Of a stretch of DNA of 64,000 nt, positions 21,345-37,070 are shown in pieces. This stretch comes from Thermoplasmatota archaeon (GTDB lineage: Archaea > Thermoplasmatota > Thermoplasmata > UBA10834). A program made the translations under genes and the position numbers. Within the stretch, counting starts at the first letter, position 1. Every line of letters begins with the position of its first letter. The stretch covers positions 1 through 64,000 of the forward strand of contig JAHIRF010000006.1 of assembly GCA_018818785.1 (NCBI GenBank). Direction: 5' to 3'. The notes under the pieces are model-generated. The model did not search any database and was not told where the DNA came from. It saw nothing but the letters and a program-made list of their open reading frames with translations.

Positions 21345-21356
21345 AGTTATTTATAC
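21345..21356 (+). promoter_or_regulatory. TATA box of tRNA-Leu
   Basis: GTTATTTATACG lies about 30 nt upstream of the first base of the tRNA, the expected position for an archaeal tRNA promoter. Confidence 0.5.
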
Positions 21357-21382
21357 GGCAACCATAATCACATCTTCCCAAA

Positions 21383-21467
21383 GCAGGGATAGCCAAGCCT
21401 GGTCAACGGCGCTAGATTCAGGGTCTAGTCGTGAAGGCGTTCGCCGGTTCAAATCCGGCTCCCTGCA
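21383..21467 (+). tRNA. tRNA-Leu (anticodon CAG)
   Basis: The 85-nt sequence folds as a class II tRNA. The acceptor stem pairs GCAGGGA with TCCCTGC, the D arm is GCC...GGC, the anticodon stem CTAGA/TCTAG encloses TTCAGGG with CAG at 21419-21421, a long variable arm (TCGTGAAGGCGTTC) follows, and the T arm is GCCGG-TTCAAAT-CCGGC. The discriminator base is A and CCA is not encoded. No intron is seen. Its 3' end is the insertion site of the element that follows. Confidence 0.96.
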
Positions 21468-21468
21468 C
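21447..21468 (+). repeat. attL: 3' end of tRNA-Leu
   Basis: This 22-bp segment covers the 3' half of the T arm, the acceptor strand, the discriminator base and one further base. It is identical to 36614-36635. The integrated element restores a complete tRNA, the standard outcome for tyrosine integrases that use tRNA 3' ends. Confidence 0.85.
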
Positions 21469-21501
21469 TTCGCCGATACTGGCTACTTTTCAATTCAGGG
21501 G

Positions 21502-22728
21502 TTATAGAAAAGACAGGTTCTTCGTGTTGTCGAAGTCCGAAAACGCATTCTCCAACTCTCTGAAAGCATGGTCCGTTCGGATACGGGTGTAGTACAGTTC
21601 TGTGGTCTTCGTTGTCTTATGACGCAGAGCTTTCGACACAGACTCAATCCCAACGCCTCTATCCTTGCATATCTGTCCGAAAGTCGCTCGCAGCTGCTGT
21701 ATCTTGAACTTGATTCGAGAATGCGTCTCAGCCATCGCCTTGGCCTTCCCCCACATCCCGTCCGACCAGTAATCTAGTCTTCCACTGTCCGATATGAACG
21801 GAAATAGGGGTTCGCATTCTGTGAATCCATACTTCTCAAGATACTCTTTTCGCTCTGCAAGGAAGTCGAGCAACGGTTGACGAGCCGGAGGCAGGATTGG
21901 GGCAAGAGCCTCGGCAGCCCACTTGTTCATTCCTTTTGGATGGGCAACGAGTATCTGCCAGGTCTCTGTGTTCACATCCTGCAGCCTAGCAAGTCTGAGC
22001 TCCGAACGTCTGAGGCCTGAATAGAGATAGATAGCTATCATGGCCCTGGCCACACAGCCTTCCCATTCAGGCATAGTCTCCAAGGAATCGACGAGCTGCC
22101 TAGCCATAGTCTCCGACAGAACCTTCACCTCTGGAGAGACCTTCTGTGGAAGACGAACATGGTTGAGCATCTTCATACGGTCAATGACCGGATTCTCGAC
22201 CCATCTCAGAAGGTTGGTCAGGTAACCTATGTAGTTCGCCTGTGTTGCTGGACGAAGACCAATACCACGAATGGTCTTGCGATTCTTCATCCATTCAAGA
22301 AAGGCCTCGACGTCTTTCATCGCCATTTTCTTAGGGTTAGCGGTGGATGCTCTGCCACATTCATGTAGCTCATCAAACGCCAGCCCAATTATCTTCAAGC
22401 CTCTCTCAATCGTCTTCAGCGTCTTCTCTCCATAGTAAGGCTTCACAGCGTCTAGGTAGGCAATAGTGCAGGATTTCCAGGGGTAACGCCCCATGGACCT
22501 TGCCCTCCTTGGACGACCGCGTCTATGTTTGCCTGTCTTTTGCACCGAAGGGCTCTGATACCGATTCTCGTTGTCTTCAGCATCTGAGACCGCTCCAAAG
22601 ACAAGTTGCTGCGAACAATGGTCGCATATCCTTGTCTCAGAAAGGATATCATCATCCTCAGACGTAAATGTATCGATAGGGCGAATGACGCCTGGAAGAC
22701 CAGGCCCAGACGCTGGAACCACCACCAT
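21502..22728 (-). CDS. int: Tyrosine recombinase (integrase)
   Basis: 408 residues. The catalytic domain has Arg240 in LYSGLRRSEL, a Lys in HPKGMNKW (265), Arg347 in QQLRATFGQIC, His370 in KALRHKTTKTTELYY and the tyrosine nucleophile at 379 or 380. The first His of the usual HxxR motif is Gln here. A core-binding SAM-like domain (about 85-180) precedes it, and an N-terminal CDHC may bind metal. It lies 34 nt from the tRNA 3' end, as expected for the enzyme that inserted the element. The upstream gene at 22729 abuts its start (TAG then ATG), so they are probably co-transcribed. Confidence 0.93.
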   Translation of the reverse strand: MVVVPASGPGLPGVIRPIDTFTSEDDDILSETRICDHCSQQLVFGAVSDAEDNENRYQSPSVQKTGKHRRGRPRRARSMGRYPWKSCTIAYLDAVKPYYGEKTLKTIERGLKIIGLAFDELHECGRASTANPKKMAMKDVEAFLEWMKNRKTIRGIGLRPATQANYIGYLTNLLRWVENPVIDRMKMLNHVRLPQKVSPEVKVLSETMARQLVDSLETMPEWEGCVARAMIAIYLYSGLRRSELRLARLQDVNTETWQILVAHPKGMNKWAAEALAPILPPARQPLLDFLAERKEYLEKYGFTECEPLFPFISDSGRLDYWSDGMWGKAKAMAETHSRIKFKIQQLRATFGQICKDRGVGIESVSKALRHKTTKTTELYYTRIRTDHAFRELENAFSDFDNTKNLSFL

Positions 22729-23166
22729 CTATTCACTGCCTGGCTTTCTCTTTGAGACGAATAGTATGTTGCGTTTGGGGCCCGCGCCAACGACGAACTC
22801 CCCGTTGACTTTGGACACATCGACTTGGATGTCAGCATTCTTGAGCTTCGACAGTTCGAGCTCCAATAGAATCCGTCCCGGGTGTTCAAGCGTATCATCA
22901 TCAACTTCAATGGGATAGCCGACCCACATCCAAGCCTCATAGGCATAACCTATCTTGCCGTTCCTCAGCCATAGTCTGCCGAGAGAAGCCTCAGCGTTGA
23001 AAACCAAGACTTCGTCGGCGGGTTGACGAAGCGGTATTTCGCCAAATAGCTTCTTGAGTTCCCACTGCTTCCACGGGGTCTTCTTCGTTCGCGGCTCCGT
23101 ACTTATCTTCTTCACAGTCGCTTCTATGTTGCATGCCTTCATGACATCTGACTCCCAAACCCGCAA
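22729..23166 (-). CDS. Hypothetical protein upstream of the integrase
   Basis: 145 residues, no family recognised. It begins MRVWESDVMKACNIEATVKK and has a mixed alpha/beta pattern (VLVFNAEASLGRLWLRNGKI, RILLELELSKLKNADIQVDV). Its stop codon is followed without any gap by the integrase ATG, so it is likely to serve the integrase, for example as a directionality factor or as a regulator, but nothing in the sequence proves this. ATG at about residue 9 is an alternative start. Confidence 0.65.
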   Translation of the reverse strand: MRVWESDVMKACNIEATVKKISTEPRTKKTPWKQWELKKLFGEIPLRQPADEVLVFNAEASLGRLWLRNGKIGYAYEAWMWVGYPIEVDDDTLEHPGRILLELELSKLKNADIQVDVSKVNGEFVVGAGPKRNILFVSKRKPGSE

Positions 23167-23593
23167 ATGACCGAGAAGAATGACAGAGCCAAGGCTCTGA
23201 TTCCATCAGTCATTGGCTCCTCAGGGGGTCCACTTCCCTCGGTTCGCATACAAGCAAAAGGCTCAGGACGCCACTCTAGCCAGTCTGCATGTTTCTGCAG
23301 ACCTAATGGGTTTCCAAACCAATATGGTAATGTTGATATATAAATCTGTTTTCGATTATTATCCAAATAGACATCAACCATTTTGGACTTCCGTCATTGT
23401 TCGTGTGGCTTCCACGTACATATTCCAATCTTTGACCCTCGATTTAGAACCAAATTCTGTGGAGCCAGCATGAGCCAGGCTCGAGACCTATGTCTGAGAC
23501 ATCTTCACGAATAACTCCCCTAATCGAATCTCAGCGCAATCTAGAAAGAAAATCCTAGACAATGAACAATCACATAGCTAGTAAGTAAGAAGC

Positions 23594-23676
23594 GATAGAT
23601 AGACAGATAGCAGGGCTTTGGATAGATAGCTGGATAGATAGATAGATAGATAGATAGATTGATTGATTGATTGATT
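23594..23676 (+). repeat. GATA/GATT tetranucleotide microsatellite
   Basis: Interrupted GATA units begin at 23594. A clean run of six GATA units (23633-23656) changes into five GATT units (23657-23676). Simple tetranucleotide repeats are uncommon in archaea; slippage of this tract could be variable between cells. It is in a non-coding part of the island. Confidence 0.85.
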
Positions 23677-24005
23677 AATAGACACTCAGGTCATTGATGA
23701 CCATTGAAGGAACGCACGAATGCTGCCACCCCGGGGCTTCGCTTGCTCGTCGACCCCCCTCCTAGGGCTGGTAACCTCAGAGAGAGATTTTGGGCGACCT
23801 CAAAACTAAGACAACAACAAGAACTACCAATAGAACCACCAACAACACACCCGTCTTACTGTGTGCAGGTAGCTGTATCATGTGGCTATCTGTTGTACGA
23901 TGAGTTCGTGACTATTGTATAGTATAGCTATAGCTTCATGCGGCGAGGAGTAACCAGTATTATATTCACCCACCCATATTAAAAGCATTTAGATTCGATT
24001 CTGGA

Positions 24006-24030
24006 AATCAGGGTGTAAGTACACCGGATT
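24006..24030. repeat. Imperfect palindrome in island non-coding region
   Basis: GGTGTA-AG-TACACC is a perfect 6-2-6 core, and outer AATC/GATT arms extend it with one mismatched step. It could be an operator or a small hairpin. It lies about 290 bp upstream of the nuclease-like gene at 24322. Confidence 0.4.
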
Positions 24031-24321
24031 CTGGATTGAACGCCGTAAACGCAAAGGAAATGGCCTTTAAAGCGATATTTAGAGCCACTCACGGACAGAT
24101 ATAATTATCAACTGATATAAATTAGGTTCAACCTTACTGGCGACCGCATCAAGCAGGTAGTGTCTCGGCGACTCCCGGAAATTATAAAAATGGCCCATTT
24201 CCCCTAGTTACTAGGGTGAACCAAAGGTATCCTCAGAGATTCGTGAGTCAATCATATATGTCGAGAAATGACCTGGAATCATAGGCTGCCAATATCTATT
24301 ACATCTCCAACACAATAGCGG

Positions 24322-25884
24322 GTGCGGAGTCGTGGGAATTTGGGAGAGATTCGCTTCGAAGAGAATGTCAAGAATCACATCAAGAGAAGTGGGTTCCCCT
24401 TGGAATTGAGAGTCATTAGAGAATGCAGCAAAGTGGCTGAAATTGCTTTGCCGAATAGACATTACATGGTTGATGGGGTACTAAAGGAGATAGATGTCCA
24501 TGCAACCTACTATACTGCAGTTCCAGACAGAGAACGACACAATCAGGTGACAAGAACGAATCTTGTCATTGAATGCAAGAAGGCGCATTCAAGTTCATGG
24601 GTATTCTTCTCAAGCAGGAATACTGAGGAGATGTATGGCCCGATTGGAGTGAAATACAAGAGCACCTTCGATGATTACCTGAAGAAATCCGCGCGAACTG
24701 CATATGACGAGAGACTGATATTCAAATACCCGATTTGCAGCAAGAATCATCATTTTGACCATATAGCACCACAATGCATCTCATATGACGAGGTCTTTGG
24801 TGAGACAAAAGGGAAGAACAAGAAGAAAGAGCCTTCAATATTCGAGGCAATTCAATCAGTAACGCTCTATATACAATTTCTAATGCAGAGGTGGGATAAA
24901 TTCAGACCCCACTCATTCGATGCTACAACGGATATCTATTGCCCTGTTGTTGTGCTGGATGGGCAAATGTTTGAAGCCAGATTGGGACCAGATGATGATG
25001 TTGAACTAATTAGACAGCATCATATTCAGCTGATGGTCGAACGTGAGGAAATCAATGCAAAATTCTATGATTCGACTTGTTGGATTGATTTCATCACTGA
25101 AGACTACCTCCCCGAATTTCTTCGAAGAATTAGAACGGAGCATGATGATACTGTTGATGCGATTGAAAATCTGCCATTTCCAAAGAGCTACTGGGATGAA
25201 GTTTCAATCCGCTTTGGAAATACTCAATTTAAGGAAAGCAGCGTCATAGACATGTTAAATGTAAGAGAGAACATGCAACTTAAGATACTCTTCGATGCGT
25301 TCGCTTCTGCGAAAACGACCGATGAACGTGATACATATATCAATCAGTTCGCATACCTCAGGGACCTATTTGGATTTGACCGATTCTATGGGAATCCTGC
25401 CATCATAAAATGGACATATTCAATCCTTGATGAATATGTCCGAAGAGATATGCCCCATGAATTCATTGGACGACCATTCTTTGAACATCTTGAGGCAATG
25501 ATAATTCATAACTGCAATTTGCGTGACTATTCGGTGCTTGAAGATAAAATCCTGCGAGATTCATTGGCGAAGATTGTCCGTGCACACAATGCCCCACAGT
25601 ATTCAAGAGAGAATTCAATCAGATGTCTGATTCGCCTTTCATCATCCCTGGGAGAACCGAGCATATTTTTGCCAGTAATGGACCTTGCACGTGATGAAGA
25701 GCTTACCGACAATGAGTTCAATGTTCTCAAGATGCCCGATGCGTTCAAAAACTATGTCTTTTTAGTATATAGCAGGGGTGATGTGCCGAAGTTGGTATTA
25801 GATTTCATCCTATCTCCTCCAACAACGACGCCTCATGTGAGAATGAGAATCCATAATTTGAAGAAATTACTGAATAGATTGTGA
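24322..25884 (+). CDS. Large protein with N-terminal PD-(D/E)XK-like nuclease motif
   Basis: 520 residues from a GTG start. The N-terminal 100 residues contain VLKEIDVHATYY (Glu56, Asp58) and, after a strand, NLVIECKKAHSS (Glu84, Lys86), the D...ExK pattern of restriction-endonuclease-like folds. The remaining 400 residues are mostly helical, with repeated short helices after about residue 310 that resemble a HEAT-like or scaffold region; I recognise no family there. It is the first plus-strand gene of the island and is AT-rich. A defence or mobile-element nuclease role is inferred from motif and context only. Confidence 0.7.
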   Translation: MRSRGNLGEIRFEENVKNHIKRSGFPLELRVIRECSKVAEIALPNRHYMVDGVLKEIDVHATYYTAVPDRERHNQVTRTNLVIECKKAHSSSWVFFSSRNTEEMYGPIGVKYKSTFDDYLKKSARTAYDERLIFKYPICSKNHHFDHIAPQCISYDEVFGETKGKNKKKEPSIFEAIQSVTLYIQFLMQRWDKFRPHSFDATTDIYCPVVVLDGQMFEARLGPDDDVELIRQHHIQLMVEREEINAKFYDSTCWIDFITEDYLPEFLRRIRTEHDDTVDAIENLPFPKSYWDEVSIRFGNTQFKESSVIDMLNVRENMQLKILFDAFASAKTTDERDTYINQFAYLRDLFGFDRFYGNPAIIKWTYSILDEYVRRDMPHEFIGRPFFEHLEAMIIHNCNLRDYSVLEDKILRDSLAKIVRAHNAPQYSRENSIRCLIRLSSSLGEPSIFLPVMDLARDEELTDNEFNVLKMPDAFKNYVFLVYSRGDVPKLVLDFILSPPTTTPHVRMRIHNLKKLLNRL

Positions 25885-25971
25885 CCATACCTGCGTGATT
25901 CTAATGGGGAGGATATCAGGAAAAAAACTATGAAACATTATATTGGCATTGCTACATGAATTCTAGAGCCT

Positions 25972-26520
25972 TTGGGTCTGATGCGAAGATTCAATACCCC
26001 AGACTTAATTGACATGGGTGGCGAGGATATGGAGCTAGAGCGAATGGAATGTTCAGAGTGTGGTTCAGTCATCTTCCAGATACCAAACCAAGCGAAGAAT
26101 GAGTTGAGTCCTTGTCTTCAATGCAACTCAACAAAGCGAAGCAAGAGTTCTCAATCATCAGAACTCATCGAATCGAAGGAGAATGCATATCTGAAGAACC
26201 AATCAGCGAATATGGACGGGCGCAGATATGCAATGCTTGGAATATGGATTACGGTCTACATATCTACATATTTCACACTCTTATCCCAAGATGATGTATC
26301 CAGCACGAGAATGAACATGGTCTATGCTTCAATATCTGCACTTTTTGGTCTAATGATATTGGCACTTTTCAGGAATAGGAAGTCCCGAATGGCTCTGTTC
26401 AACTATTTTGACTGGGCACTGGGAGAACGGAAGACAGATGCCAAGGCAATGGTTGTCCCAATTGTATTTGCAATTGTCCTCATAATCACGATTCTTGAAT
26501 ACATTATACTGGACCCATAA
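25972..26520 (+). CDS. Zinc-ribbon membrane protein
   Basis: 182 residues. A zinc ribbon lies near the N-terminus (ECSECGSVIF... with SPCLQCNS). Three hydrophobic segments follow: YAMLGIWITVYISTYFTLL, MVYASISALFGLMILALF and VVPIVFAIVLIITILEYIIL. The true start may be an internal ATG such as the one giving MGGEDMELERMECSEC. No catalytic motif is visible. Within a defence-type island such proteins can be membrane effectors, but this is speculation. Confidence 0.65.
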   Translation: MGLMRRFNTPDLIDMGGEDMELERMECSECGSVIFQIPNQAKNELSPCLQCNSTKRSKSSQSSELIESKENAYLKNQSANMDGRRYAMLGIWITVYISTYFTLLSQDDVSSTRMNMVYASISALFGLMILALFRNRKSRMALFNYFDWALGERKTDAKAMVVPIVFAIVLIITILEYIILDP

Positions 26521-26546
26521 TCCTTCTTCATTGAATCTGCATATAT

Positions 26547-27281
26547 ATGCATAGGAATTGCACACTTCCTTTAAAATTTCATCTGGAAAAACCTAAAGTC
26601 ATCGAGAGCGATTCGGACTACGGGCGGTGGATATTCGTGGAGTCTGTGAGTATGCCAGTCGAGCACGCGAGAGAGGGTTGTGAAAAGATTGCTCAAAACG
26701 TGATTGAGTTGGTGCGAAGTGCATCGTACCTGCTCAACATGAACGATGAGACTGCTCACCGACGACAGGCTTACGTACTCATCATCCACGCAATAGACGA
26801 GGCGGGCAAGATGATTCGGATAATCAAGGAGATGATAGCGGCAGAATCCAATGGCTGCAAGGCAATCACCATCACGGGATTCTACAGCCATAAACGCAAA
26901 GGTTCGGAAGCTGCTGCAATCGGACTTGTAGCTATTGATTGGTTTGATGAGTTATTGAAGACACGGACTGCTGAATTCGAGGAATCGGAGGATAAGGATT
27001 CTCTCGAACGATATAGGTCCCACCTGGAAACACTCCGAAGAGAATTCGATGGAGAACGGGAGCGGGTTTTATACGTCGACTATGAGAATGGAAAGTGGCT
27101 TCAGCCTATTTCAGCAAATGAAGTCGACATAATCCTTGATGCGCATCTGTTATCTCTGACGGCTATTATCGTGCAAAGTAGCCTGAAAGCAGGCAAGACA
27201 TTCCGTGAGGTAAGCGATACCATTCAGCAGGTTCAGGATTCTATGAAGAAGTTCTTCAGGGAATATGCGGACACAACATAG
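26547..27281 (+). CDS. HEPN-like protein, possibly AbiV-type abortive infection
   Basis: 244 residues, all-helical in character. The region VRSASYLLNMNDETAHRRQA, then AYVLIIHAIDEAGKMIRIIK and FYSHKRKG follows the pattern of the AbiV family of HEPN proteins (a helix with E-x-GK followed by a conserved H-K pair). Archaeal relatives occur in defence islands. AbiV in lactococci blocks phage protein synthesis. The match is by eye, and only part of the domain is clear. ATG 26547 is used; an ATG giving MPVEHAREG lies further in. Confidence 0.5.
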   Translation: MHRNCTLPLKFHLEKPKVIESDSDYGRWIFVESVSMPVEHAREGCEKIAQNVIELVRSASYLLNMNDETAHRRQAYVLIIHAIDEAGKMIRIIKEMIAAESNGCKAITITGFYSHKRKGSEAAAIGLVAIDWFDELLKTRTAEFEESEDKDSLERYRSHLETLRREFDGERERVLYVDYENGKWLQPISANEVDIILDAHLLSLTAIIVQSSLKAGKTFREVSDTIQQVQDSMKKFFREYADTT

Positions 27282-27291
27282 AGGAGAAGTC

Positions 27292-27304
27292 CTTAAGCCA
27301 TCGA
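27292..27304 (+). promoter_or_regulatory. CTTAAGCCAT promoter-like element, copy 1
   Basis: CTTAAGCCATCGA begins 26 nt before the GTG at 27318, the spacing of a leaderless archaeal promoter. The same CTTAAGCCAT core, each time preceded by an AAGY-rich sequence and followed by a GA-rich, ATTC-like stretch, recurs at 36202 and 45760. Confidence 0.4.
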
Positions 27305-27317
27305 AATCGATTCGGAA

Positions 27318-27587
27318 TTGGTGATTAGGATTCAATCAACACCAATCAATCCAACAGAGGTCACAAATCAACAGTTGATGACAAAGCTTGAAAAGATGGA
27401 AAAACAGAATAAGAGCTGGATTCTTGTATCGTCCGCCTTCGTATTTGTTGCACTAGCATTTAGCATGTTGAGCGTGACGGGGTTCAAAGTTGAGAATAAG
27501 ATACTGGTCTATGTCTACCTCATAGCTGCATTCATAATGGGTTGCTTAAGTCTGTATCTTCTTTACAGGGTGAGCAAGATACAATGA
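27318..27587 (+). CDS. Small two-helix membrane protein
   Basis: 89 residues from GTG 27318. A short coiled-coil-like N-terminus (QQLMTKLEKMEKQNK) precedes two membrane helices: WILVSSAFVFVALAFSMLSV and ILVYVYLIAAFIMGCLSLYL. I recognise no family. The start is supported by the promoter-like element 26 nt upstream. It follows the HEPN-like gene at a distance of 36 nt but appears to have its own promoter. Confidence 0.6.
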   Translation: MVIRIQSTPINPTEVTNQQLMTKLEKMEKQNKSWILVSSAFVFVALAFSMLSVTGFKVENKILVYVYLIAAFIMGCLSLYLLYRVSKIQ

Positions 27588-27749
27588 TGGCATAACGTCA
27601 CATTGTCGCTCAGACATTGACGTACAGTTACGTACGTCACATCCGGAGCGCTTCGGTCTCAATTCTACACATTGATGCCATAAAGCTTAATAGGAACAAA
27701 TGTTGTTGTTGTGATAATAGTATTAGTAGTAATACTGGTGGTGTTAGCG

Positions 27750-27887
27750 GTGGCATACCCCGAGCCGATTCCTGCGCTGAAAGCGAAAGATGCAAAGCAG
27801 TTTGTGAAGCAGCTTGAGAGCTTTGAATTGAATCCTGCGCAGAAGAAGATTTACACACAGGCCAGGGAACGATTCCCACCGGAATAG
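27750..27887 (+). CDS. Small putative antitoxin upstream of GNAT gene
   Basis: 45 residues from GTG 27750: AYPEPIPALKAKDAKQF, then VKQLESFELNPAQKKI and YTQARERFPPE. GGTGGTG lies just before the start. An in-frame GTG at 27711 would add a hydrophobic 13-residue head and remains possible. The basic and helical sequence with an LKAKDAKQF motif resembles small proteins encoded just ahead of archaeal GNAT genes. It ends 21 nt before the GNAT start, a typical antitoxin-toxin order. Function is inferred from size and position. Confidence 0.5.
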   Translation: MAYPEPIPALKAKDAKQFVKQLESFELNPAQKKIYTQARERFPPE

Positions 27888-27908
27888 CCTATTTGAGGAG
27901 GAATCGAC

Positions 27909-28490
27909 ATTTCTGGCTCGAACTTCGATGAGCCGGATTTTGAAATAGAGAGACTCAAGTTTGAACCATTCAAAGCTGATACTGCCGAAGTAAAGTCCTT
28001 TGATTGTGGAATCGCAGAATTGAATGATTTCCTATGCAGCGATGAAGTTGCTACATACGAGAAGCAGAAAGTTGGTAGGACAACTTTGGTATATCACCAA
28101 GGTAGGCTCGTCGCATACTATACAATAAGCAATGACCAGCTTAGAACCGAATACGTCAAGAAACACACCGGTTTCTCATTGCCAAACGAAATGCGACTTG
28201 AGGGCATACCTGCAATAACAATAGGTCGACTAGCGGTCAGCAAGGAATGGCAAAAAAGGGGACTCGGCACGGCAATCATTCAGAAGATAGCCATGTATGC
28301 GCTTCACTGCTCCACTCAATCCGGAATAAGACTCCTTCTAGTTCGAGCAAAGAAAAATGCCTTTGGATTCTACGAGAAGATGGGCTTCCAGTACGTAATT
28401 GAAACAAGGAGAGAAAAACAGAGAATTCAGAATTACGGGACTAAGACAATGTTCTTTGACCTCAAAACTCTCAGCGACCTAGAGAGTTAG
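27909..28490 (+). CDS. GNAT acetyltransferase, probable toxin of a toxin-antitoxin pair
   Basis: About 193 residues if translation starts at the ATT at 27909, which lies 7 nt after GAGGAGG. The first conventional start (TTG 28020) would delete the N-terminal strand with KFEPFKADTAEVKSFDCGIA, a conserved part of TacT-like GNAT proteins (the FDCG...LNDFL pattern), so the upstream start is preferred. The acetyl-CoA motif A is ITIGRLAVSKEWQKRGLGTA, followed by LLVRAKKNAFGFYEKMGF. Toxins of this class acetylate aminoacyl-tRNA. The small gene directly upstream could encode the antidote. Confidence 0.75.
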   Translation: MSGSNFDEPDFEIERLKFEPFKADTAEVKSFDCGIAELNDFLCSDEVATYEKQKVGRTTLVYHQGRLVAYYTISNDQLRTEYVKKHTGFSLPNEMRLEGIPAITIGRLAVSKEWQKRGLGTAIIQKIAMYALHCSTQSGIRLLLVRAKKNAFGFYEKMGFQYVIETRREKQRIQNYGTKTMFFDLKTLSDLES

Positions 28491-28516
28491 CCTTGATTTC
28501 AATGGATTTCAACCAG

Positions 28517-28819
28517 CTATCTGTCGGGGAATGGATATTGTGGTGGCTCATCATCGCCAAGCCAATAATGTTGAATTCCTTGGTCAAGGCATGCTCCGAG
28601 GAAGACAATGACAACGCCAATGATGACCATGAGAATCTGTTGTTCCCAGGTCTTAGCGATTCCTATGTGCGATGGAGCAAGCAGAATCACAATGACGCCA
28701 ACGCAGACAACGCCAGCCCAAGGATGCTTCTCTATCAAGAAGTAGTACATAGCAACTACAAGACAGAGAACAATAGCCATACCTGGCACAATCCTTATGT
28801 TCACAGTTACACCAGACAA
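28517..28819 (-). CDS. Small multi-pass membrane protein
   Basis: About 100 residues. Three hydrophobic segments are visible: PGMAIVLCLVVAMYYFLI, WAGVVCVGVIVILLA and QQILMVIIGVVIVFLGACL. The start codon is uncertain (TTG 28819, GTG 28804 or ATG about 28780). An overlapping plus-strand frame of 126 residues (28493-28873) has a low-complexity Asn/Asp/His composition typical of the reverse of hydrophobic codons, so I take the minus strand as coding. It is convergent with the GNAT gene. No family recognised. Confidence 0.5.
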   Translation of the reverse strand: MSGVTVNIRIVPGMAIVLCLVVAMYYFLIEKHPWAGVVCVGVIVILLAPSHIGIAKTWEQQILMVIIGVVIVFLGACLDQGIQHYWLGDDEPPQYPFPDR

Positions 28820-28916
28820 GAAGCCATATTGCTCCGACGCTATCTTTGTTTCGCACTATTCGGGAGCCAATAGTCAAATTGCGGGATGAGAAATGGAGTC
28901 TGAGCCAGTTCCACGT

Positions 28917-28945
28917 CTGATTGAAATCAGAAAAAGGACGTCTGG
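28917..28945 (+). repeat. 29-bp island repeat, copy 1
   Basis: Begins with the palindrome CTGATT-GA-AATCAG, then AAAAAGGAC and TCTGG. A copy at 30070-30098 matches at 28 of 29 positions. This copy lies about 40 nt before the start of the HEPN-type gene at 28987 and may act as its regulatory region. Confidence 0.65.
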
Positions 28946-28986
28946 GCGAATGAAAGGATTTAGAGCAGCGAAGGCAATCGGGGTAT

Positions 28987-29961
28987 GTGCAAGCTGGCGA
29001 AGTATCTGAGGGAAGCGGAACTCATGCCCATATGGGGCGCTCCGCAGCGAATTGGAGTGTTACCTGTATCTGGCTGGATGACCCAAAACACAAGAACGCT
29101 GCTCACAGCTGGAGTATACCCTACGCTACCGACCCTGAAATGGAGAAGAACCCATTCGCTCGGTCCATCGAGTGTAATGTATGCCGCAAAGAGTTCAGCC
29201 TCTTTGAGGGAGTGAAAGAATCATTCAAGTCTGAGAATCCATTTGTAATGCGCGATTTTGAGTTCAATGCCCGCGCCATTGGTACGACGACCATTGTTGC
29301 TGGTTTGAAGAAGGACTTCAGACTTCAGGATAAGTTTGCTGGTCGTCCTGAGGTGTACTTGACACCGCAGAGCCCTGTAATTGTCGCTCCGGCGCTGATT
29401 CATGCATCTGGATTCTCGATACTGAGTTCTTCTGCTGGAGAAGCACATACTTCAGCTAATCACACCATCAATTGGCTGGTGTATGGTAACTACGATGACC
29501 TATCTGTTCCATTATGGAGAAGACTTCTCTCAGACTCGAAGTCTCATCAAGCCAGAGGAGAACACAGGTCTGAGATTGTTGCCCTTGAATCAGGAGTCGA
29601 GTTGTTCATCTCCGAACACCTTCAACATGCCCTGCAAGCGAAAGGAGTGCATCAGACAACCATAGACTGGGTTCAGAGGCGCGGCATTGAGGAGAAATGC
29701 TCAATATGGTTAAGAGAAGCGAATGGGAAGTCCCTCTCGGATGTTGACCAGAAGCTGCACAGCCGATGGATTAAGGATTTGAAAAAGGTCAGAGACGCGG
29801 TTGTCCATAAAGGGAAGGAAGTCTCTAGTGAAGAAGCGATTAAGGCACGTGATGCCGCGATTAGCGTAATCGTCAATGTCTGCCCAAAGGCGCTACTTCA
29901 CTTCCGTATCGGTCAGGTGGAAAGACGTATTGAGGCGGAAAGTTCAGATAAGACCGATTGA
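28987..29961 (+). CDS. HEPN-type putative RNase with N-terminal CxxC
   Basis: 324 residues from GTG 28987. The N-terminal part carries a single CxxC (ECNVCRKEF, about residues 62-70) and several His/Trp residues. The C-terminal 130 residues are helical. Within them KKVRDAVVHKGKE gives Arg269-x4-His274, the RNase motif of HEPN domains, followed by SSEEAIKARDAAISVI. HEPN proteins with this motif act in toxin and abortive-infection systems. The middle domain is beta-rich and unassigned. The exact start is uncertain, since few alternatives exist in frame. Confidence 0.6.
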   Translation: MQAGEVSEGSGTHAHMGRSAANWSVTCIWLDDPKHKNAAHSWSIPYATDPEMEKNPFARSIECNVCRKEFSLFEGVKESFKSENPFVMRDFEFNARAIGTTTIVAGLKKDFRLQDKFAGRPEVYLTPQSPVIVAPALIHASGFSILSSSAGEAHTSANHTINWLVYGNYDDLSVPLWRRLLSDSKSHQARGEHRSEIVALESGVELFISEHLQHALQAKGVHQTTIDWVQRRGIEEKCSIWLREANGKSLSDVDQKLHSRWIKDLKKVRDAVVHKGKEVSSEEAIKARDAAISVIVNVCPKALLHFRIGQVERRIEAESSDKTD

Positions 29962-30348
29962 AGAGTTCGCTGCATTCTTCCCGAACCCCTTGACACTGAT
30001 GGGAGTTGACCCGCATTATGACTTCGAATTCGATAGAGTTTCAACGCCGTTTGACGCTTCATTTCCATTCTGATTGAAATCAGAAAAAGGACTTCTGGCT
30101 AAACAAGGTCAAGACCCCACAGGGTCCACACCAATCACCAATAATATCGAGCAAAGAAGTCATCGGAACGGGTTCACAGTCCTCTGGATGTACCTAATAG
30201 ACACAGTGAGAAAGGTCATACCACAGGGCAATGACACTGACAAGATGGAGTGTTCGCGGAGGATACCAAACCCTGCAGTGTATGCAATCCCCCTGAACAT
30301 GAACAGTATATATGACCGAAGTGCAATCAACTCGACGGTTGCAAGCGG
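29962..30348. other. 387-bp gap within the island
   Basis: No convincing gene. It contains the second copy of the 29-bp repeat at 30070-30098. A short plus-strand frame over 29876-30073 overlaps the HEPN gene and is not supported. AT-rich segments around 30305-30315 (AGTATATATG) may be the promoter of the restriction-methylation gene. Confidence 0.4.
30070..30098 (+). repeat. 29-bp island repeat, copy 2
   Basis: Same sequence as 28917-28945 apart from one base (T for G at position 24). It starts with the CTGATTGAAATCAG palindrome. It lies about 250 nt before the restriction-methylation gene. Confidence 0.65.
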
Positions 30349-33300
30349 ATGGTTCATGACGAAGCCAAGATAATGGATGGCCTGAATAGGCTCTTTGAGA
30401 AAACGCGAGCCAGGACGGACAAGCTTACCGAAGAGGAACTGAGGAGCATTTTTAAAGAGACCGTTATCCTCGGCACACTAGGTTACAAAGATATAGGCAG
30501 AGACATTCGGCTGGAAAAGACGCTTCGAACATCTGGTAGAAGAACAGATATACAGTGCTCTGATGACCTTGGAAGAATCACATTTGTCGTGGAATTCAAG
30601 AAACCAAGTGACCCAACTGAATTAAAGAGCCATTTGAGCCAACTTTGGGAGGGATACGTTCTACCATTGAGAGCAAGATATGGCATTCTCATAAATGGCC
30701 TTCACATAGTCGTATATGAGAGGATAGGAAGAAATCACCACACGATTCTCGACCGAGACCTGCACGACATCAATGAGGATGATTGTTCGAAATTACTGAA
30801 GAAACTGAGAAAGCCCAAACACAACCTGACTTCCACGCATGAAGTGCAGGAATACCTTAAACAAATCTCAGACCCTGACGAGAAAATGACTCTGTCCAAT
30901 GAACTGTCACGTGAAATGTTTCTCGAAGATTTCAGACTTGGTGAACCATCACCATTCTCAGACCTGCTCAAAGGGTGCATCGACCTTTTTGATATGCAGT
31001 ATGGCGATTCGCGTTTCTTGACAAGTGCTTTCGATTTCTGGATGAAGTCATATGCAAAGAAACCGTACAGAATACCTGATAACTGGGGGCGGATTCTTAA
31101 GTCATTTGGCTTGACTAGAAAGGAAAGTGACCTCCAAAAATTCATGTTTTGCCTCGAGACCACTTATGCCCTCTTCACTAGACTGATACTTGCGAAAGCT
31201 TGCGAGGATTACGAATTCCCACACATCAAATTTGATGACTTCCTATCAGGCATGAGAGAGCATTCGTTTAGAGGAGATATCCCCCTGGCAGCATGGGGAA
31301 TTCTTGCGACAGAATGGATTGAGGCCCTTCGTGATAGTCTTGTCGAATCTGTATTCGAGGAAGACATATTCTACTGGTGGACTGACAAGTTCATGCAAAT
31401 GAAGGATTGGCCAACAAAAGACCTCTTTTCGGACAGAATCGAAGTTGGACTCCTTCCATTCTGCAAGGCTCTATCGAAACTGCTATTTGTTATGTATAGA
31501 TATGATTTCTCGAAGATTGCAGGAGACCCGCTTGGCGACCTTTACCAGAACTATTTTGACAAGGAAACAAGAAAAGCACTCGGAGAATTCTATACCCCAC
31601 CCGAGGTTGTGAACTATATTCTCGACGAGGTTGGTTATGATGGGCAATTCATCCTTAGCAAGAGGCTGCTTGACCCAGCTTGTGGCTCGGGGACTTTCGT
31701 AGTTGAAGCACTCCGAAGATACCTTCACGCCATGGAGCAGCGTGCCAAAGACCGCGGCTGGGGAGAGGTTCTGAAGAATCTATGCAACGAGTATCACATA
31801 GTCGGCTTCGATATACATCCGTTTGCCACGATTATGGCACAGATTCATTTCATGCTTGTGCTCATTCCATATTATAAGAAGGCCGTACAAGAAGAGAAGG
31901 ACTTTGTTCTGAGAAGAATCCCGATATTCAGAACAGATTCTCTGATGGACGAACGAAGAGATATGAAACCGGATATCACTACATTTTATGAGAATCCCGA
32001 CAACATCCAGCTCAGAATCACCTTGCCAGTCAGAAAAGAAGTCGGAGGAGGAGAGTTTGTCGAGATTGAAGTCGGAATGCCAAACCCTAGTGCAGTTTGG
32101 AGAAAGACGAGTCTCAGTAGCATACCAGACTACTTTTGCGCTCTTCAAGCGCTATTCGATGCGGTTAAATCTCGAGCAAGAGAGGAGCAGTATTCGATTA
32201 ACAAGGATGAACTAGCAACTAGACTCAAGGAGTATCTCGAGGATAAAGAATGGAGCGACATTGTCACCCTCTTCGAGCCGTATGGAAATACTCTTCTAGC
32301 CACGATAAGAACTCTAAAATATCAATTCGGAGACGGAAGATTGGTGAAATCCGTCGAAGACGTAATGCTTGCCGGTCTTCTCAAGAACTATGTAGAATTG
32401 GAAAACGGGTATGATTTTGTCGTTGGCAATCCACCATGGGGTGGCATTCTCAAAGGGAAGAAAGGAACTCTCCAGGATGACCGAACGAAGGAATTGTATT
32501 CGGAATACTATATGTCTGCAAGAGGGAAATATGACATATATGTGCTCTTCATCGAGCGCTCAATAAGGTGGCTCAGGGACGGAGGAAAGCTTGGATTCAT
32601 TGTCCAAAACCGATTCCTAAAGGTAGCTTATGGATTTGAACTTCGTAGGCTAATACAAGACAGAACTGCAATGAAGACTATAGTTGATTTTGGGGATTCG
32701 AAAGTCTTCCGAGACGCCACAAACTATCCATGCATTCTCGTGTTGGAAAAGAGCGGAAGACGTGGAAGCAAGCTCAGATACTTTGAGTTAACTCGACTTG
32801 CAGAAAACTTAGGACTTCAAGATATCCTTGATAGAATTGCCAACCATGAAGAAGGAGATAACTCGAGCGCGAGTTATTATTCAATTTACAGTGTTGAACA
32901 AGATGAACTCAGTCCACTATCATGGGTTCCCAAGAGCGATGTCGGAGAAGAGGTTTTCAGCTTAATATCTGCCCATGACACACTGGCCCAATATACGGAA
33001 GAGATAATGCAAGGAGTCACAATAGGTGGGGAAGGCGGAGAGAACATCTTCTGTATAGACAAACGGGCTATGAATGAATTTGGCATTGAACAGGACACTC
33101 TAAAGAGAGTTCTCAAGGGCAGGGACATAGACAGATGGCATATCGAATGGTCGGGTAGATACCTAGTCTACCCGTACTCAGATAGTGGACAAGTCCTGAA
33201 CATGGATGAGCATCCCAGACTCAAAGGATACTTGGAACCACATAAGAGACTTCTTGAATCAAGAATCCTTGATGGAAAGAACATTGCTGATTGGAACAAG

Positions 33301-34104
33301 CCATGGTACTCACTCTGGAGACAAAGGTCGCCCAGAATTCTCAATAGTCCGAAGATTGTAGTGCCGAGGATTGCTCTCACCAATAGCTTTGCATTGGATT
33401 CTGGAGGCGACTTTTTTATTATGGATTCGGCCATCGCAATCATTCCAAAGAAGAATATCTCAGTCTTATTCCTTCTAGGAATACTGAACTCGGAGCTCAT
33501 CAATTATTTCATCTCTAAGACTAGCCCATTCGTTCAGAACAGATATTTCAGCTTCACGAGAACTTACATTGAAAGGATACCAATCAAGAACCCTGATTCG
33601 CCCAGAGATAAAAAACTCGCCCAGGGTATTGAAGATGCGACATCCTTGATTATTGAAACGAAAGAAATTGAGCACCGCACTCTGAATTTCCCCAAAGGGT
33701 ATCTCGCAGATTGTCCGGGAATAGAACTTGAAGAACTCTGTTTCACACCTGGACACGATGTGAAGCTACTGGAACTGATTTCGACAAAAAACCTCTCAGA
33801 AGGAGTTGCCATCAATGACCAGAGTGGAGAACTCAATATCACGGTTGAAAATCAGAAACAGGCTGAATATGTTGTCACGTGCCTCAGGAATCGGAGATTT
33901 AAGAAGGGAGAGAAAGTACGACTTCTCATGCCAAGAAGCCAGGACGAAATCGATATAATCATGCGTAAATACAAAGAGGACCTAAAAGAGATGGAGAAAA
34001 GAGATATCGAGAACCTCGAACTCAAAATCAACGAACTCGTATTCGAATTCTATGGCGTGGATGAGAAACTGAGGGCGTTCATAAGGTCTCGTTTGGCTGA
34101 ATAG
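30349..34104 (+). CDS. Type IIG-like restriction-modification protein (nuclease, m6A methyltransferase and specificity domain)
   Basis: 1251 residues. The N-terminus has a nuclease-like D...ExK pattern: SGRRTDIQCSDDLG followed by TFVVEFKKPSD (about residues 62-86). A helical connector leads to the N6-adenine methyltransferase: GEFYTPPEVVNYI (about 410), motif I LLDPACGSGTFVVEAL (about 439) and motif IV VVGNPPWGG (about 692). The last 400 residues, with IPKKNISVLFLLGILNS and RTYIERIPIK, resemble the target-recognition region of such enzymes. One polypeptide should both methylate and cut, with S-adenosylmethionine as cofactor. No separate specificity or restriction subunit is adjacent. ATG 30373 is an alternative start. 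Confidence 0.88.
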   Translation: MVHDEAKIMDGLNRLFEKTRARTDKLTEEELRSIFKETVILGTLGYKDIGRDIRLEKTLRTSGRRTDIQCSDDLGRITFVVEFKKPSDPTELKSHLSQLWEGYVLPLRARYGILINGLHIVVYERIGRNHHTILDRDLHDINEDDCSKLLKKLRKPKHNLTSTHEVQEYLKQISDPDEKMTLSNELSREMFLEDFRLGEPSPFSDLLKGCIDLFDMQYGDSRFLTSAFDFWMKSYAKKPYRIPDNWGRILKSFGLTRKESDLQKFMFCLETTYALFTRLILAKACEDYEFPHIKFDDFLSGMREHSFRGDIPLAAWGILATEWIEALRDSLVESVFEEDIFYWWTDKFMQMKDWPTKDLFSDRIEVGLLPFCKALSKLLFVMYRYDFSKIAGDPLGDLYQNYFDKETRKALGEFYTPPEVVNYILDEVGYDGQFILSKRLLDPACGSGTFVVEALRRYLHAMEQRAKDRGWGEVLKNLCNEYHIVGFDIHPFATIMAQIHFMLVLIPYYKKAVQEEKDFVLRRIPIFRTDSLMDERRDMKPDITTFYENPDNIQLRITLPVRKEVGGGEFVEIEVGMPNPSAVWRKTSLSSIPDYFCALQALFDAVKSRAREEQYSINKDELATRLKEYLEDKEWSDIVTLFEPYGNTLLATIRTLKYQFGDGRLVKSVEDVMLAGLLKNYVELENGYDFVVGNPPWGGILKGKKGTLQDDRTKELYSEYYMSARGKYDIYVLFIERSIRWLRDGGKLGFIVQNRFLKVAYGFELRRLIQDRTAMKTIVDFGDSKVFRDATNYPCILVLEKSGRRGSKLRYFELTRLAENLGLQDILDRIANHEEGDNSSASYYSIYSVEQDELSPLSWVPKSDVGEEVFSLISAHDTLAQYTEEIMQGVTIGGEGGENIFCIDKRAMNEFGIEQDTLKRVLKGRDIDRWHIEWSGRYLVYPYSDSGQVLNMDEHPRLKGYLEPHKRLLESRILDGKNIADWNKPWYSLWRQRSPRILNSPKIVVPRIALTNSFALDSGGDFFIMDSAIAIIPKKNISVLFLLGILNSELINYFISKTSPFVQNRYFSFTRTYIERIPIKNPDSPRDKKLAQGIEDATSLIIETKEIEHRTLNFPKGYLADCPGIELEELCFTPGHDVKLLELISTKNLSEGVAINDQSGELNITVENQKQAEYVVTCLRNRRFKKGEKVRLLMPRSQDEIDIIMRKYKEDLKEMEKRDIENLELKINELVFEFYGVDEKLRAFIRSRLAE

Positions 34105-34180
34105 GAGACCATCACGCGTTTCGCTTGCAGATATTTCGCGAGAAAGACCTTATCATTTCAATGCAGTATGCGGATTTGCC

Positions 34181-34969
34181 TTGAATCTCGCGCTTGACCC
34201 AAGAATCGGTGGACTATATCACAGCCCTTCCCAACAAGCCCGTGTAATCACGGAAGCATGGGTTGAGAATGAAATGTACTGTCCATCGTGCAGTTCAAAT
34301 TCTCTGGATAGGCTTGAACACGGAACAAAAGTCTTGGATTTCAAATGCGGCAAATGTGATGAAGGATATCAATGCAAGAGTCTTTCGAAACCCATTGGAC
34401 ATAAGATTCTAGATTCTGCGTACGAAGCAATGATAACGGCTATCAAGACTGACAATGCACCTAATCTCCTGATTCTTCATTACTCGAAGGAGGAGTGGAT
34501 AGTTCAGAATCTGCTCATCATACCTCGTCATTTACTCACAGTCTCAGCAATTGAGGAGAGGAAGCCTTTGAGTCCTTCTGCAAGAAGAGCCGGATGGATT
34601 GGCTGCAATATCATCCTTGACCGAATGCCAACATCTGGACGGATATTCGCCGTGAAAGACTCGATGCTATTGAAACCTTCGGAAGTAAGAGCTGAGTGGA
34701 GGCAATTAGCCTTTCTGAGGGACCTTGCACCTGAATCCAGAGGATGGCTTGTGGATGTCCTTTCGTGCATTCAGTCCCTCGATAAGCACCAGTTCACACT
34801 TGCAGAGGCCTACAAGTTTGAGAGAGAGCTCTGTGCACTTCACCCAGAAAACAGACATATCAAACCCAAAATACGGCAACAGCTTCAGATACTGAGGGAT
34901 AGAGGAATTCTCAAATTTGCCGCAAGAGGACAATACGAATTCGTGGCTGCTAAATTGGATAGTGCTTGA
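34181..34969 (+). CDS. dpnI: DpnI-family methyl-directed restriction endonuclease
   Basis: 262 residues, near the length of DpnI. Homology to R.DpnI is strong: YHSPSQQARVITEAWV, MYCPSCSSN with FKCGKC for zinc (Cys34, 37, 56, 59), RKPLSPSARRAGWIGCNI, and the C-terminal winged helix with IRQQLQILRDRG. DpnI cuts Gm6ATC. Its catalytic residues, as I recall D53, E64 and K66, correspond here to Asp53, Gln64 and Lys66, so the acidic residue is Gln. QxK variants occur in other nuclease families such as Mrr, so activity is not excluded. The start is TTG 34181 or an unidentified upstream codon. The gene lies 76 nt after the m6A methyltransferase gene. Confidence 0.93.
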   Translation: MNLALDPRIGGLYHSPSQQARVITEAWVENEMYCPSCSSNSLDRLEHGTKVLDFKCGKCDEGYQCKSLSKPIGHKILDSAYEAMITAIKTDNAPNLLILHYSKEEWIVQNLLIIPRHLLTVSAIEERKPLSPSARRAGWIGCNIILDRMPTSGRIFAVKDSMLLKPSEVRAEWRQLAFLRDLAPESRGWLVDVLSCIQSLDKHQFTLAEAYKFERELCALHPENRHIKPKIRQQLQILRDRGILKFAARGQYEFVAAKLDSA

Positions 34970-35101
34970 CAACCCGAGACGCAGGACAATCACTGCATAT
35001 CCAAGCTATCATTGAATGGATGCCCTAACGTCAGAACTGATGCATGGCACAATCGAGGATAATATAAGTACCTCAGTCAGACTTCTAGATGTGGTGGTCA
35101 A

Positions 35102-36058
35102 GTGAAGATACTGGAGATGAATGGAGAACTTTTCTATCCGCACAAATACAAAGATGAAGCAGAACTGCAGGATTATGTGGAAAGGAATTTCGAGCTCATT
35201 TTTGGAGATGAGGCGGTATGGTTTCCAGGAAGGAGAATAGGAGCGGGTAGGGGGGAAACAGGCGCAAAGGGAATTCCTGATGGCTTCGTCATATTATTAG
35301 ACCAGAAGAAATGGATAATCGTGGAGGTCGAACTAGCTTCTCATTCCCTTCATGACCATGTCAACCCTCAGGTAAGTAAATTCTCGCAAGCCTGGAAGAA
35401 GAATAGGAAGGATTTTGCTGACCGGCTATTCAAGAAGTGTGAGCAATCCAAAGAGATTCTTGAGAAGTTCAAATCGCATCGCATTGTCTCGAATTACTAC
35501 AAATTCATAGCTGACATAGTCGAGAATAAACCAGACATCGCCATCATAATCGATGAATATTCAGAAGAGCTAGATGATTTGAAGGACGAGTGGAACTTCA
35601 ACCTCAATTGGTCAATATTCAGAGCCTATGTCTCCAAAGATGGGGGTCGGAATAGAATAATCTTCGACATGGATGTCATTGAGGAACCACCTCGCTTTAG
35701 GAAGACTCGACCAGGAAGGATGGCTTCATCTGCAAGACCGGTCAGGAAACTTGTGTTTCTTGGAGGAATGGCTCCATTCGAAAAGTCCAGTCAGATTCCA
35801 GCGATTGTCGCCAACGAGCTCATCAAACGAGGCAATTTAACCAAAAACAAGATTCCTTGGGGGCCCGGCAAGAAGCGTTATTTAGTCAGCATGCAGCCAA
35901 TACATCCGAGAGGAAATGAATTCTTCATGCCTGAACAACTCAACAACGGATGGTGGGTGGAGAAGCATGCGAGCGAGAGGAGACAGGTGAGTTTGGCTTC
36001 ACGATTAATCAAGCACTGTGGCCTGAGTAACGACGAAATTCGTATCGAATCAATGTGA
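35102..36058 (+). CDS. Putative nuclease-fold protein with C-terminal domain
   Basis: 318 residues from GTG 35102, about 40 nt after a TATA-like GATAATATAAG. The N-terminal 100 residues follow the DUF91/NucS-like pattern: AELQDYVERNFELIFG, then GIPDGFVILLDQKKWIIVEV (Asp60, Glu75, Glu77), and HVNPQVSKFSQA. The usual ExK lysine is Glu here, so the site is ExE. The C-terminal part (RKLVFLGGMAPFEKSSQIPA to VEKHASERRQ) is not recognised. It lies at the right end of the island, 133 nt after the DpnI gene. Confidence 0.65.
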   Translation: MKILEMNGELFYPHKYKDEAELQDYVERNFELIFGDEAVWFPGRRIGAGRGETGAKGIPDGFVILLDQKKWIIVEVELASHSLHDHVNPQVSKFSQAWKKNRKDFADRLFKKCEQSKEILEKFKSHRIVSNYYKFIADIVENKPDIAIIIDEYSEELDDLKDEWNFNLNWSIFRAYVSKDGGRNRIIFDMDVIEEPPRFRKTRPGRMASSARPVRKLVFLGGMAPFEKSSQIPAIVANELIKRGNLTKNKIPWGPGKKRYLVSMQPIHPRGNEFFMPEQLNNGWWVEKHASERRQVSLASRLIKHCGLSNDEIRIESM

Positions 36059-36201
36059 TTCATAACGCGTCCGCAGGGCACGCATTAGCCCGAACAAACT
36101 TAAAAGATGAACCATGTATGAACTCGTCCCCAGCCGATTCCCTAACGAAATCGTATCTTGAACGCCGACCCAGGCAACGAAATGGTCCTTTGAGACAAGC
36201 T

Positions 36202-36214
36202 CTTAAGCCATCGA
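36202..36214 (+). promoter_or_regulatory. CTTAAGCCAT promoter-like element, copy 2
   Basis: CTTAAGCCATCGA lies 41 nt before the TTG start at 36243. The sequence matches the elements at 27292 and 45760. Confidence 0.4.
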
Positions 36215-36242
36215 CTTCAATTCAGGACCGAGGGAACATACG

Positions 36243-36482
36243 TTGAAGTGTCCGAAATGTGGAGAGAATCTCGTCTGGAACCTGAAGCACTCGCGATATT
36301 ACTGCACCGAATGTGAGGATTTCCCGATGCTCAGAGATGAATCCGAGCGGCAATTTATTGAATCCGTTCCCAGGGAGCTCAAGCGGATAGGTGACGCACT
36401 CTGGACAGTCATATACATAGCAATAGCCATGTCAGTCTTAAGTGTCATCGTCGCTATGGCAGTCTTCATGAATGCCTTCTAG
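36243..36482 (+). CDS. Zinc-ribbon small membrane protein
   Basis: 79 residues from TTG 36243. The zinc ribbon is KCPKCGENLVWNLKHSRYYC then TECEDFP. A membrane helix follows (ALWTVIYIAIAMSVLSVIVA). It is the last gene of the integrated element, about 130 bp before the right attachment site. Function unknown. Confidence 0.65.
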   Translation: MKCPKCGENLVWNLKHSRYYCTECEDFPMLRDESERQFIESVPRELKRIGDALWTVIYIAIAMSVLSVIVAMAVFMNAF

Positions 36483-36595
36483 AACTTGGCTAGAATCAGA
36501 GTCCTGGAACACATCATCGCAGACTATGAGGATATAAATGAGAAAAAGGAAGAGGTTTGTGCCCTTCGTGCAAATTCTATGAACCTCTGATTGAA

Positions 36596-36635
36596 ATATA
36601 GCCAGTCTTCTGAGTTCAAATCCGGCTCCCTGCAC
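36596..36635 (+). repeat. attR of the island, with repeat-family sequence on its left side
   Basis: Positions 36614-36635 are identical to the tRNA-Leu 3' end (21447-21468) over 22 bp. The preceding CTGATTGAAATATAGCCAGT and the following CTTCTGA resemble the dispersed repeat found at 41075, 42617 and 46181. There is no tRNA here: the 5' half, D arm and anticodon arm are absent. Confidence 0.85.
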
Positions 36636-36683
36636 GGCTCCCGCCTGGTGTTTTTCATGTCGGATTTTCAGGATGCGGGTTCA

Positions 36684-37070
36684 TCATTTTTCGGTGAAAT
36701 TTGAGAATGCGTTTTCGAGTTCACGAAATGCATACTCCGCCCTGATTCTTGCATAGTATAGCTCGGTGGTTCGACTTGTCATGTGTCGGAGTGCTCGTGA
36801 GACGGATTCCATCTTTGCCCCTCTATCCTTGCACATCTGCGCGAAGGCGGCCCTGAATTCTGTATACGGAAAACGATTCCAGGCCATTCTGACATCCGCC
36901 TTCACTTTCCCCCACATTCCATCGGTACAGTAGCTGATCGCCCCGGTCCTCGTTATGTGGAGAACGATGACCTCACATTCAGTGATGCTGGTGGTGGCCA
37001 AGTACTCCCTCATCTCCTGAAATAACCGCAGAACCGCGTCCCGAACAGTGCGGCGCTCTTGGGGAACCAC
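36684..37070 (-). pseudogene. 5'-truncated tyrosine integrase
   Basis: About 128 codons that align with the last 115 residues of the intact integrase: CTDGMWGKVKADVRMAWNRF matches its WSDGMWGKAKA region, then FRAAFAQMCKDRG, SVSRALRHMTSRTTELYYAR and AFRELENAFSNF. The Arg of box I and the whole core-binding domain are missing. Upstream sequence shows no continuation. It is inactive but marks a previous integration event by a related element. Confidence 0.85.

Follow-up and report, generated by a model that had tools for sequence, protein, structure and literature searches.

The window analysed here is a stretch of 64,000 nucleotides from a Thermoplasmatota archaeon (GenBank assembly GCA_018818785.1, contig JAHIRF010000006.1, positions 1 to 64,000 of the forward strand). 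It contains a 15.2-kb defence-bearing integrative element, predicted to be mobile, which is inserted at a tRNA-Leu gene, carries a homologue of the restriction endonuclease DpnI behind a type IIG restriction-modification gene, and is entirely devoid of the sequence GATC, the site that DpnI cuts when its adenine is N6-methylated (Gm6ATC). The host is an archaeon by its full-length small subunit (SSU) rRNA (1491.6 bits) and has a genome of 1.97 Mb. The features on which the argument turns are listed below.

21447..36635, no strand: integrative element of 15,189 bp without GATC, bounded by 22-bp perfect direct repeats.
21003..36939, no strand: GATC-free run between the GATC sites at 21003 and 36936, coinciding with the element.
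21383..21468, plus strand: tRNA-Leu (CAG), the integration target (ARAGORN).
21447..21468, plus strand: attL repeat GTTCAAATCCGGCTCCCTGCAC (22 bp), the 3' end of the tRNA gene.
36614..36635, plus strand: attR repeat, the identical 22 bp (direct-repeat match).
21502..22728, minus strand: tyrosine recombinase (integrase) adjoining attL (Pfam Phage_integrase 1.9e-9; PHROG integrase 6.4e-21).
30349..34104, plus strand: predicted single-chain type IIG restriction-modification protein of 1251 residues, with an HSDR_N-like nuclease motif, an Eco57I/N6 methyltransferase (NPPW) and a TaqI_C specificity domain.
34181..34969, plus strand: predicted DpnI-family Gm6ATC-dependent endonuclease of the Gln (QCK) form, TTG start, 262 residues.
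34337..34378, plus strand: its active site Asp53-Gln64-x-Lys66 (D-x10-Q-C-K), codons 53 to 66, from alignment with DpnI and 36 other relatives.
34868..34888, plus strand: its KIRQQLQ winged-helix motif reading m6A in GATC, codons 230 to 236, invariant in a 21-sequence alignment.

Direct repeats of the tRNA 3' end are found at both ends of the element and the integrase lies beside one of them, as in tRNA-targeted elements generally, and the GC content is 0.45 between the att repeats versus 0.57 and 0.54 in the flanks. The 15,189 bp contain no GATC versus 67–68 expected from a second-order Markov model of the element's own sequence, and the next-longest gap between GATC sites in the window is 932 bp. 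One might suspect that base composition explains the absence, since the element is foreign and has a lower GC content than its flanks. However, the expectation of 68 sites already derives from the element's own trinucleotides, and GATC is the sole absent 4-mer (the next most depleted, AATT, occurs 83 times versus 109 expected), while its one-letter neighbours are plentiful (GATA 105, GATG 97, GATT 125, AATC 110, CATC 84 and TATC 68). Moreover, synonymous-codon shuffling of the element genes left 45.5 GATC on average, the lowest count among 1000 trials being 30, and four genes outside the element contain about as many GATC as expected under such shuffling. The chance that composition is to blame is therefore negligible. 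This absence of GATC from the whole element, its most striking trait, was not noted in the original prediction.

The rest of the genome is GATC-rich. Host control DNA, 912 kb sampled as stretches from outside the window, holds 6186 GATC at an observed/expected ratio (o/e) of 0.80, with a longest gap of 1332 bp. Avoidance is thus absolute on the element and nearly absent on the chromosome, so that selection seems to act on the element and not on the cell. Neither is the purge a trait of all integrated elements in these hosts, because three other integrase loci in the host genome, and 12 in related genomes, retain GATC. Approximately 992 four-mers of the element are one substitution away from GATC and a neutral divergence of 1% would create about three sites, which implies either a recent arrival of the element or continuing selection on it.

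The identification of the protein encoded at 34181–34969 as a DpnI homologue was part of the original prediction, which had been made from the letters of the sequence alone, and it is borne out by Pfam, PADLOC and the Protein Data Bank (PDB). Both Pfam models are matched over their full length, DpnI by residues 1–180 (E 3e-61, 206.7 bits for a cut-off of 26.7) and DpnI_C by residues 185–253 (E 8.9e-30, 103.1 bits for a cut-off of 23), which correspond to an N-terminal PD-(D/E)XK domain with a zinc ribbon and a C-terminal winged helix. The PADLOC model mREase_II is matched at 6.5e-87 and, in PDB, R.DpnI (4esj) at an E value of 1.7e-69. An AlphaFold model built from 21 relatives (mean predicted local distance difference test score, pLDDT, 92.4) superposes on 4esj with a template modelling (TM) score of 0.85 and a Z score of 31.2, and the nearest folds outside the DpnI family are the BisI-family enzymes NhoI and Eco15I (Z 9.5–10). 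Asp53, Lys66, both pairs of zinc cysteines (Cys34/37/56/59) and the winged helix are retained, as had been predicted. When compared with the contact residues described for DpnI (PMC4117772), the m6A pocket (Leu129, Arg135, Trp138 and Gly140) and the GATC contacts Ser17, Gln18 and Arg126 are all identical, and the differences concern Asn48, replaced by Gly, and Leu65, replaced by Cys at a position where the main chain is what matters. In phage and plasmid collections, the only DpnI-family matches were gonococcal Drg and winged-helix fragments.

The position of DpnI Glu64, which is a ligand of the site-1 metal (PMC4117772), is occupied by a glutamine, again as predicted. In an alignment of 38 proteins (the window protein, DpnI, gonococcal Drg and 35 relatives) the residue at this position is Gln in 24, Glu in 13 and Lys in one. 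Glu64 is thus not family-defining, and the idea of Gln as a degenerate or unique residue has to be abandoned because it is the majority state. In the host's archaeal phylum Gln is the more frequent state, and a woesearchaeon and an acidobacterium have it too. On a tree computed without the position-64 column the three states need four changes versus a mean of 12 when shuffled, and this clustering argues that Gln64 is an old, inherited alternative. Asp53 and Lys66 are present in all 24 Gln-form proteins, which come from distant archaea as well as the acidobacterium, and Glu25 in the first helix is kept in 22 of these versus eight of the 13 Glu forms.

Glutamine active sites are already known in restriction enzymes. 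Mrr and MspJI are PD-QxK nucleases (PMC12707154), and a structural study of the BisI family holds Asn and Gln to be equally fit for the metal-ligand position, shows that in NhoI and Eco15I the Gln of the QVK/QIK motif binds Ca2+, and reports that QxK also requires a helix glutamate (PMC11347163). The original prediction was thus right to point to active QxK nucleases. Its further proposal, in which the residue would betray an enzyme that is retuned or inactive, or a protein that reads modified DNA, finds no support, since 24 of 38 relatives share the residue, Asp, Lys and the m6A pocket are kept, and Gln chelates the metal in the BisI family. A catalytically dead protein that merely reads methylated DNA, e.g. 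as a regulator, could be argued for on the grounds that it is Glu64 that chelates the metal in DpnI (PMC4117772), that no characterised Gln-form enzyme was found and that there has been speculation about the related Drg acting in regulation (PMC4269198). Nevertheless, a dead site would not need the Asp53 and Lys66 kept in every Gln form, and neither the metal chelation by Gln in NhoI and Eco15I (PMC11347163) nor the full-length PADLOC and Pfam scores favour such a reader, which we regard as improbable. Judging from residue conservation, the DpnI homologue is probably an active Gm6ATC cutter. Gln64 would take over from Glu64 as a ligand of the site-1 metal, alongside Asp53 and the backbone carbonyl at position 65; Glu25 in helix 1 would probably assist, and Lys66 would activate water. 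Such an enzyme would destroy incoming DNA bearing Dam-type methylation, and Gln-form DpnIs would add to the range of active sites known in a much-used enzyme family.

The upstream gene (30349–34104) is on the same strand and stops 76 bp short of the start codon of DpnI. It had been predicted to encode an m6A methyltransferase, and N6 methyltransferase domains are indeed found (Pfam Eco57I 2.4e-28 and N6_Mtase 5.2e-18, together with TaqI_C 3.8e-16), the best matches being type II methyltransferases and type IIG enzymes. However, it is not a bare methyltransferase, since its N-terminus has an HSDR_N-like PD-(D/E)XK motif (RRTDIQ...FVVEFKKP). Pfam HSDR_N_2 scores 19.2 bits on this protein (E 0.0014), below the 25-bit cut-off, and 26.5 bits, above the cut-off, on a 39%-identical full-length relative (L197) in which RTDI...EFKKP is kept. 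For these reasons, the protein is most likely a complete single-chain type IIG enzyme with its own nuclease, and it would methylate a site other than GATC.

Adjacency on one strand with only 76 bp between the genes, along with the methyltransferase pieces lying beside DpnI in scattered bacterial relatives, might suggest that the two proteins work as one system, the DpnI homologue being licensed or targeted by the type IIG methyltransferase. Yet among the 389 and 292 genomes sampled from the phylum, that of the window is alone in having both DpnI and a type IIG protein of this kind, the sampled archaeal DpnI loci show no type IIG-like neighbour, the closest full-length type IIG relative adjoins an integrase with no DpnI, and the type IIG protein has a nuclease motif of its own. 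A joint system is therefore very unlikely. Because the two do not co-occur in sampled relatives, they are juxtaposed cargo and no conserved system, and neither a methyltransferase–DpnI conflict nor a two-gene system can be upheld as a conserved arrangement. Type IIG enzymes mostly recognise asymmetric sites and typically methylate one strand, and efficient cutting by DpnI needs fully methylated GATC, so that the suspected conflict is weak. The class of the upstream enzyme and the lack of co-occurrence in sampled genomes thus agree with the original view that the pair need not be self-destructive.

Methyltransferase gene pieces next to DpnI were seen in three bacterial contigs. In Granulicella (L039, 7522–8844) the DpnI homologue follows the N-terminal part of an MT-A70 gene (MT-A70 positions 1–44), and in Methylomirabilota (L038, 2305–3810) it precedes the C-terminal part of such a gene (positions 34–172), with a small cysteine-rich open reading frame (ORF) adjoining DpnI in both. 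In these two contigs DpnI interrupts or partly replaces an MT-A70 m6A methyltransferase gene, which recalls the replacement of dam by drg in Neisseria. In Chloracidobacterium (L036, 7202–9654) DpnI and a tail resembling the MT-A70 C-terminus of L038 lie between fragments resembling both ends of another DNA methyltransferase gene (weak Pfam scores).

The host genome yielded no recognisable Dam-type methyltransferase. The sole D12 match is a 54-residue fragment within an N6_N4-type protein, which speaks against a Dam enzyme encoded elsewhere in the host, and a fifth methyltransferase match resembles a tRNA methyltransferase. Neither MutH nor DpnII was found in this genome. There is thus no evident paradox: the host appears to lack Gm6ATC, so that its chromosome and a DpnI nuclease can coexist.

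The reading that best accommodates these findings, and in which we have good confidence, is that of an active Gln-form DpnI carried as cargo by a selection-purged tRNA-Leu defence element in a host that apparently lacks Gm6ATC. Several points weigh against it. Both characterised enzymes in the alignment, DpnI and gonococcal Drg, carry Glu, and no characterised Gln-form DpnI was found. The window protein has Gly in place of Asn48, the residue that touches the proximal guanine from the minor groove (Gly or Ser is also found in six relatives). The host has three N6/N4-type DNA methyltransferase loci, any of which might methylate GATC, and the GATC purge of the element could predate the acquisition of DpnI. 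The interest, in any event, lies in the GATC-free element that carries both genes, the DpnI itself being an ordinary Gln form beside an unrelated type IIG gene.

GATC avoidance per se is already known from DpnI-bearing genomes and from haloviruses. Of 42 genomes that encode DpnI-like enzymes, 38 were found to be depleted in GATC, a result called surprising by the authors and tentatively linked to DNA exchange or mismatch repair; DpnI should spare unmethylated DNA, hence the avoidance was left open (PMC4687349). The median GATC o/e is 0.41 in 17 DpnI-bearing archaeal genomes versus 0.92 in 20 DpnI-negative ones (p 0.006), a comparison that lineage confounds and on which no weight is placed, and ten DpnI-bearing genomes of the host's phylum (G129, G007, G048, G146, G052, G160, G321, G032, G190 and G356) have genome-wide values of 0.18–0.41, calculated from control stretches (loci L047–L066 and L106–L125). 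A purge local to the DpnI genes was not seen in relatives, several DpnI-bearing archaea being depleted genome-wide. Viral DpnI matches are partial only; two IMG/VR contigs whose match covers the winged helix alone (L078 and L079) contain 18 GATC versus 74 expected and 13 versus 51, respectively (0.24–0.26). We found no description in the literature of a mobile element that carries DpnI and has lost every GATC in a host that is not purged.

What drove the purge is a separate matter. Selection would have removed GATC from the element, and however the DNA of the host it enters is methylated, a GATC-free element would be safe both from its own DpnI and from GATC-cutting restriction in other cells. 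Nicking by MutH during mismatch repair was ruled out as the driver because the genome has no MutH. Two explanations remain, which the data do not separate. The first, put forward tentatively as somewhat short of an even chance, is that GATC was eliminated for immunity to the element's own DpnI, making it a self-immune, methylation-triggered weapon whose purge is kept strict by ongoing selection. If true, the element would enter or compete in Dam- or DpnII-methylated populations, destroying Gm6ATC-marked DNA, be it of rival elements or of the host, but never itself. The second, which likewise falls a little below an even chance, is that the purge is independent of this DpnI and answers to the GATC nucleases of recipient cells (DpnI-, Mrr- or DpnII-type), with DpnI as coincidental cargo, much as in the GATC-free haloviruses. 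In favour of such evasion, 45 of the 46 phages whose hosts possess such enzymes are depleted in GATC (PMC6286503), and DpnII-family genes occur in nine of 389 sampled genomes, one of them from the sister genus, where the gene shares a contig with the nearest relative of the element's integrase, while the host genome itself has none. The unpurged state of the three other host integrase loci and the 12 in relatives is harder to reconcile with it, as is the fact that the purged locus is the DpnI carrier, although in a single case cause and coincidence are inseparable. Whichever explanation holds, a GATC-free DpnI element offers a way to study why DpnI carriers avoid GATC.

The remaining cargo of the element comprises the following genes.

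24322..25884, plus strand: 520-residue protein without a family match (no Pfam, PHROG, PADLOC or PDB match).
26547..27281, plus strand: AbiV-family HEPN abortive-infection protein (TIGR04498 1.3e-11; PF18728 5.6e-11).
28020..28490, plus strand: GNAT acetyltransferase (PF13508 3e-11).
35102..36058, plus strand: 318-residue protein directly 3' of DpnI, with no significant family match.

An IECKK motif in the 520-residue protein suggests a PD-(D/E)XK-type nuclease, and the cargo also holds several other proteins with no assigned family. No capsid or replication gene was recognised in the element with PHROG, and a search of viral contigs with the integrase, the type IIG protein and the 520-residue protein found no relatives. 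A 30-nt repeat is present in two copies that are 97% identical (28916–28945 and 30069–30098), each with the palindrome TCTGATTgaAATCAGA; one lies upstream of a 324-residue ORF and the other in the stretch that precedes the type IIG gene, an operator-like arrangement. Just outside attR, the minus strand (36684–37070) holds what is left of a second integrase C-terminus, which resembles that of the element integrase and probably stems from a previous insertion into this tRNA gene. The closest relative of this integrase (55%) is found on a 4.7-kb contig (C51) of a sister-genus genome (G251), which also encodes a DpnII-family protein (PF04556, 55 bits, partial; L182 2–991 and 2794–3708 for the two loci). 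DpnI and DpnII might possibly alternate on related elements, with GATC-directed restriction near at hand, the DpnII match being a partial one.

Among known systems, the closest is R.DpnI of Streptococcus pneumoniae (PDB 4esj and 4kyw; type IIM, PF06044 + PF17726), which has the same full-length architecture and fold (Z 31) and with which the window protein shares the zinc Cys pairs, Asp53, Lys66, Gln18, Arg126, Leu129, Arg135, Trp138, Gly140 and KIRQQLQ. The window protein differs by having Gln for Glu64, Cys for Leu65 and Gly for Asn48, and its gene is archaeal and is located on a GATC-free tRNA-Leu element beside a type IIG gene. Neisserial Drg/NmeBII, the product of the dam-replacing gene, belongs to the same family and is a Gm6ATC-specific cutter of dam-negative strains (PMC4269198), but it has Glu64 and a divergent methyl pocket, and drg replaces dam in the leuS locus with no integrative element. 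NhoI, Eco15I, Mrr and MspJI resemble the window protein in using QxK, with Gln as metal ligand and a helix-1 Glu (PMC11347163), although the BisI family, Mrr and MspJI lie outside the DpnI family, act on modified cytosine or in other contexts and have no DpnI-type winged helix. The DpnI-bearing genomes surveyed by Rusinov in 2015 show partial depletion over the whole genome (PMC4687349), whereas the purge reported here is total and confined to the element, the o/e of the chromosome being 0.80. The nearest parallel to the element itself is provided by haloviruses PH1, SH1 and HHIV-2, described, in the part of the report drawn on here, as archaeal mobile DNA with zero GATC in a GATC-rich host (PMC3622292); these are viruses for which that part mentions no DpnI of their own, whereas the present element is integrated and itself encodes the predicted Gm6ATC nuclease.

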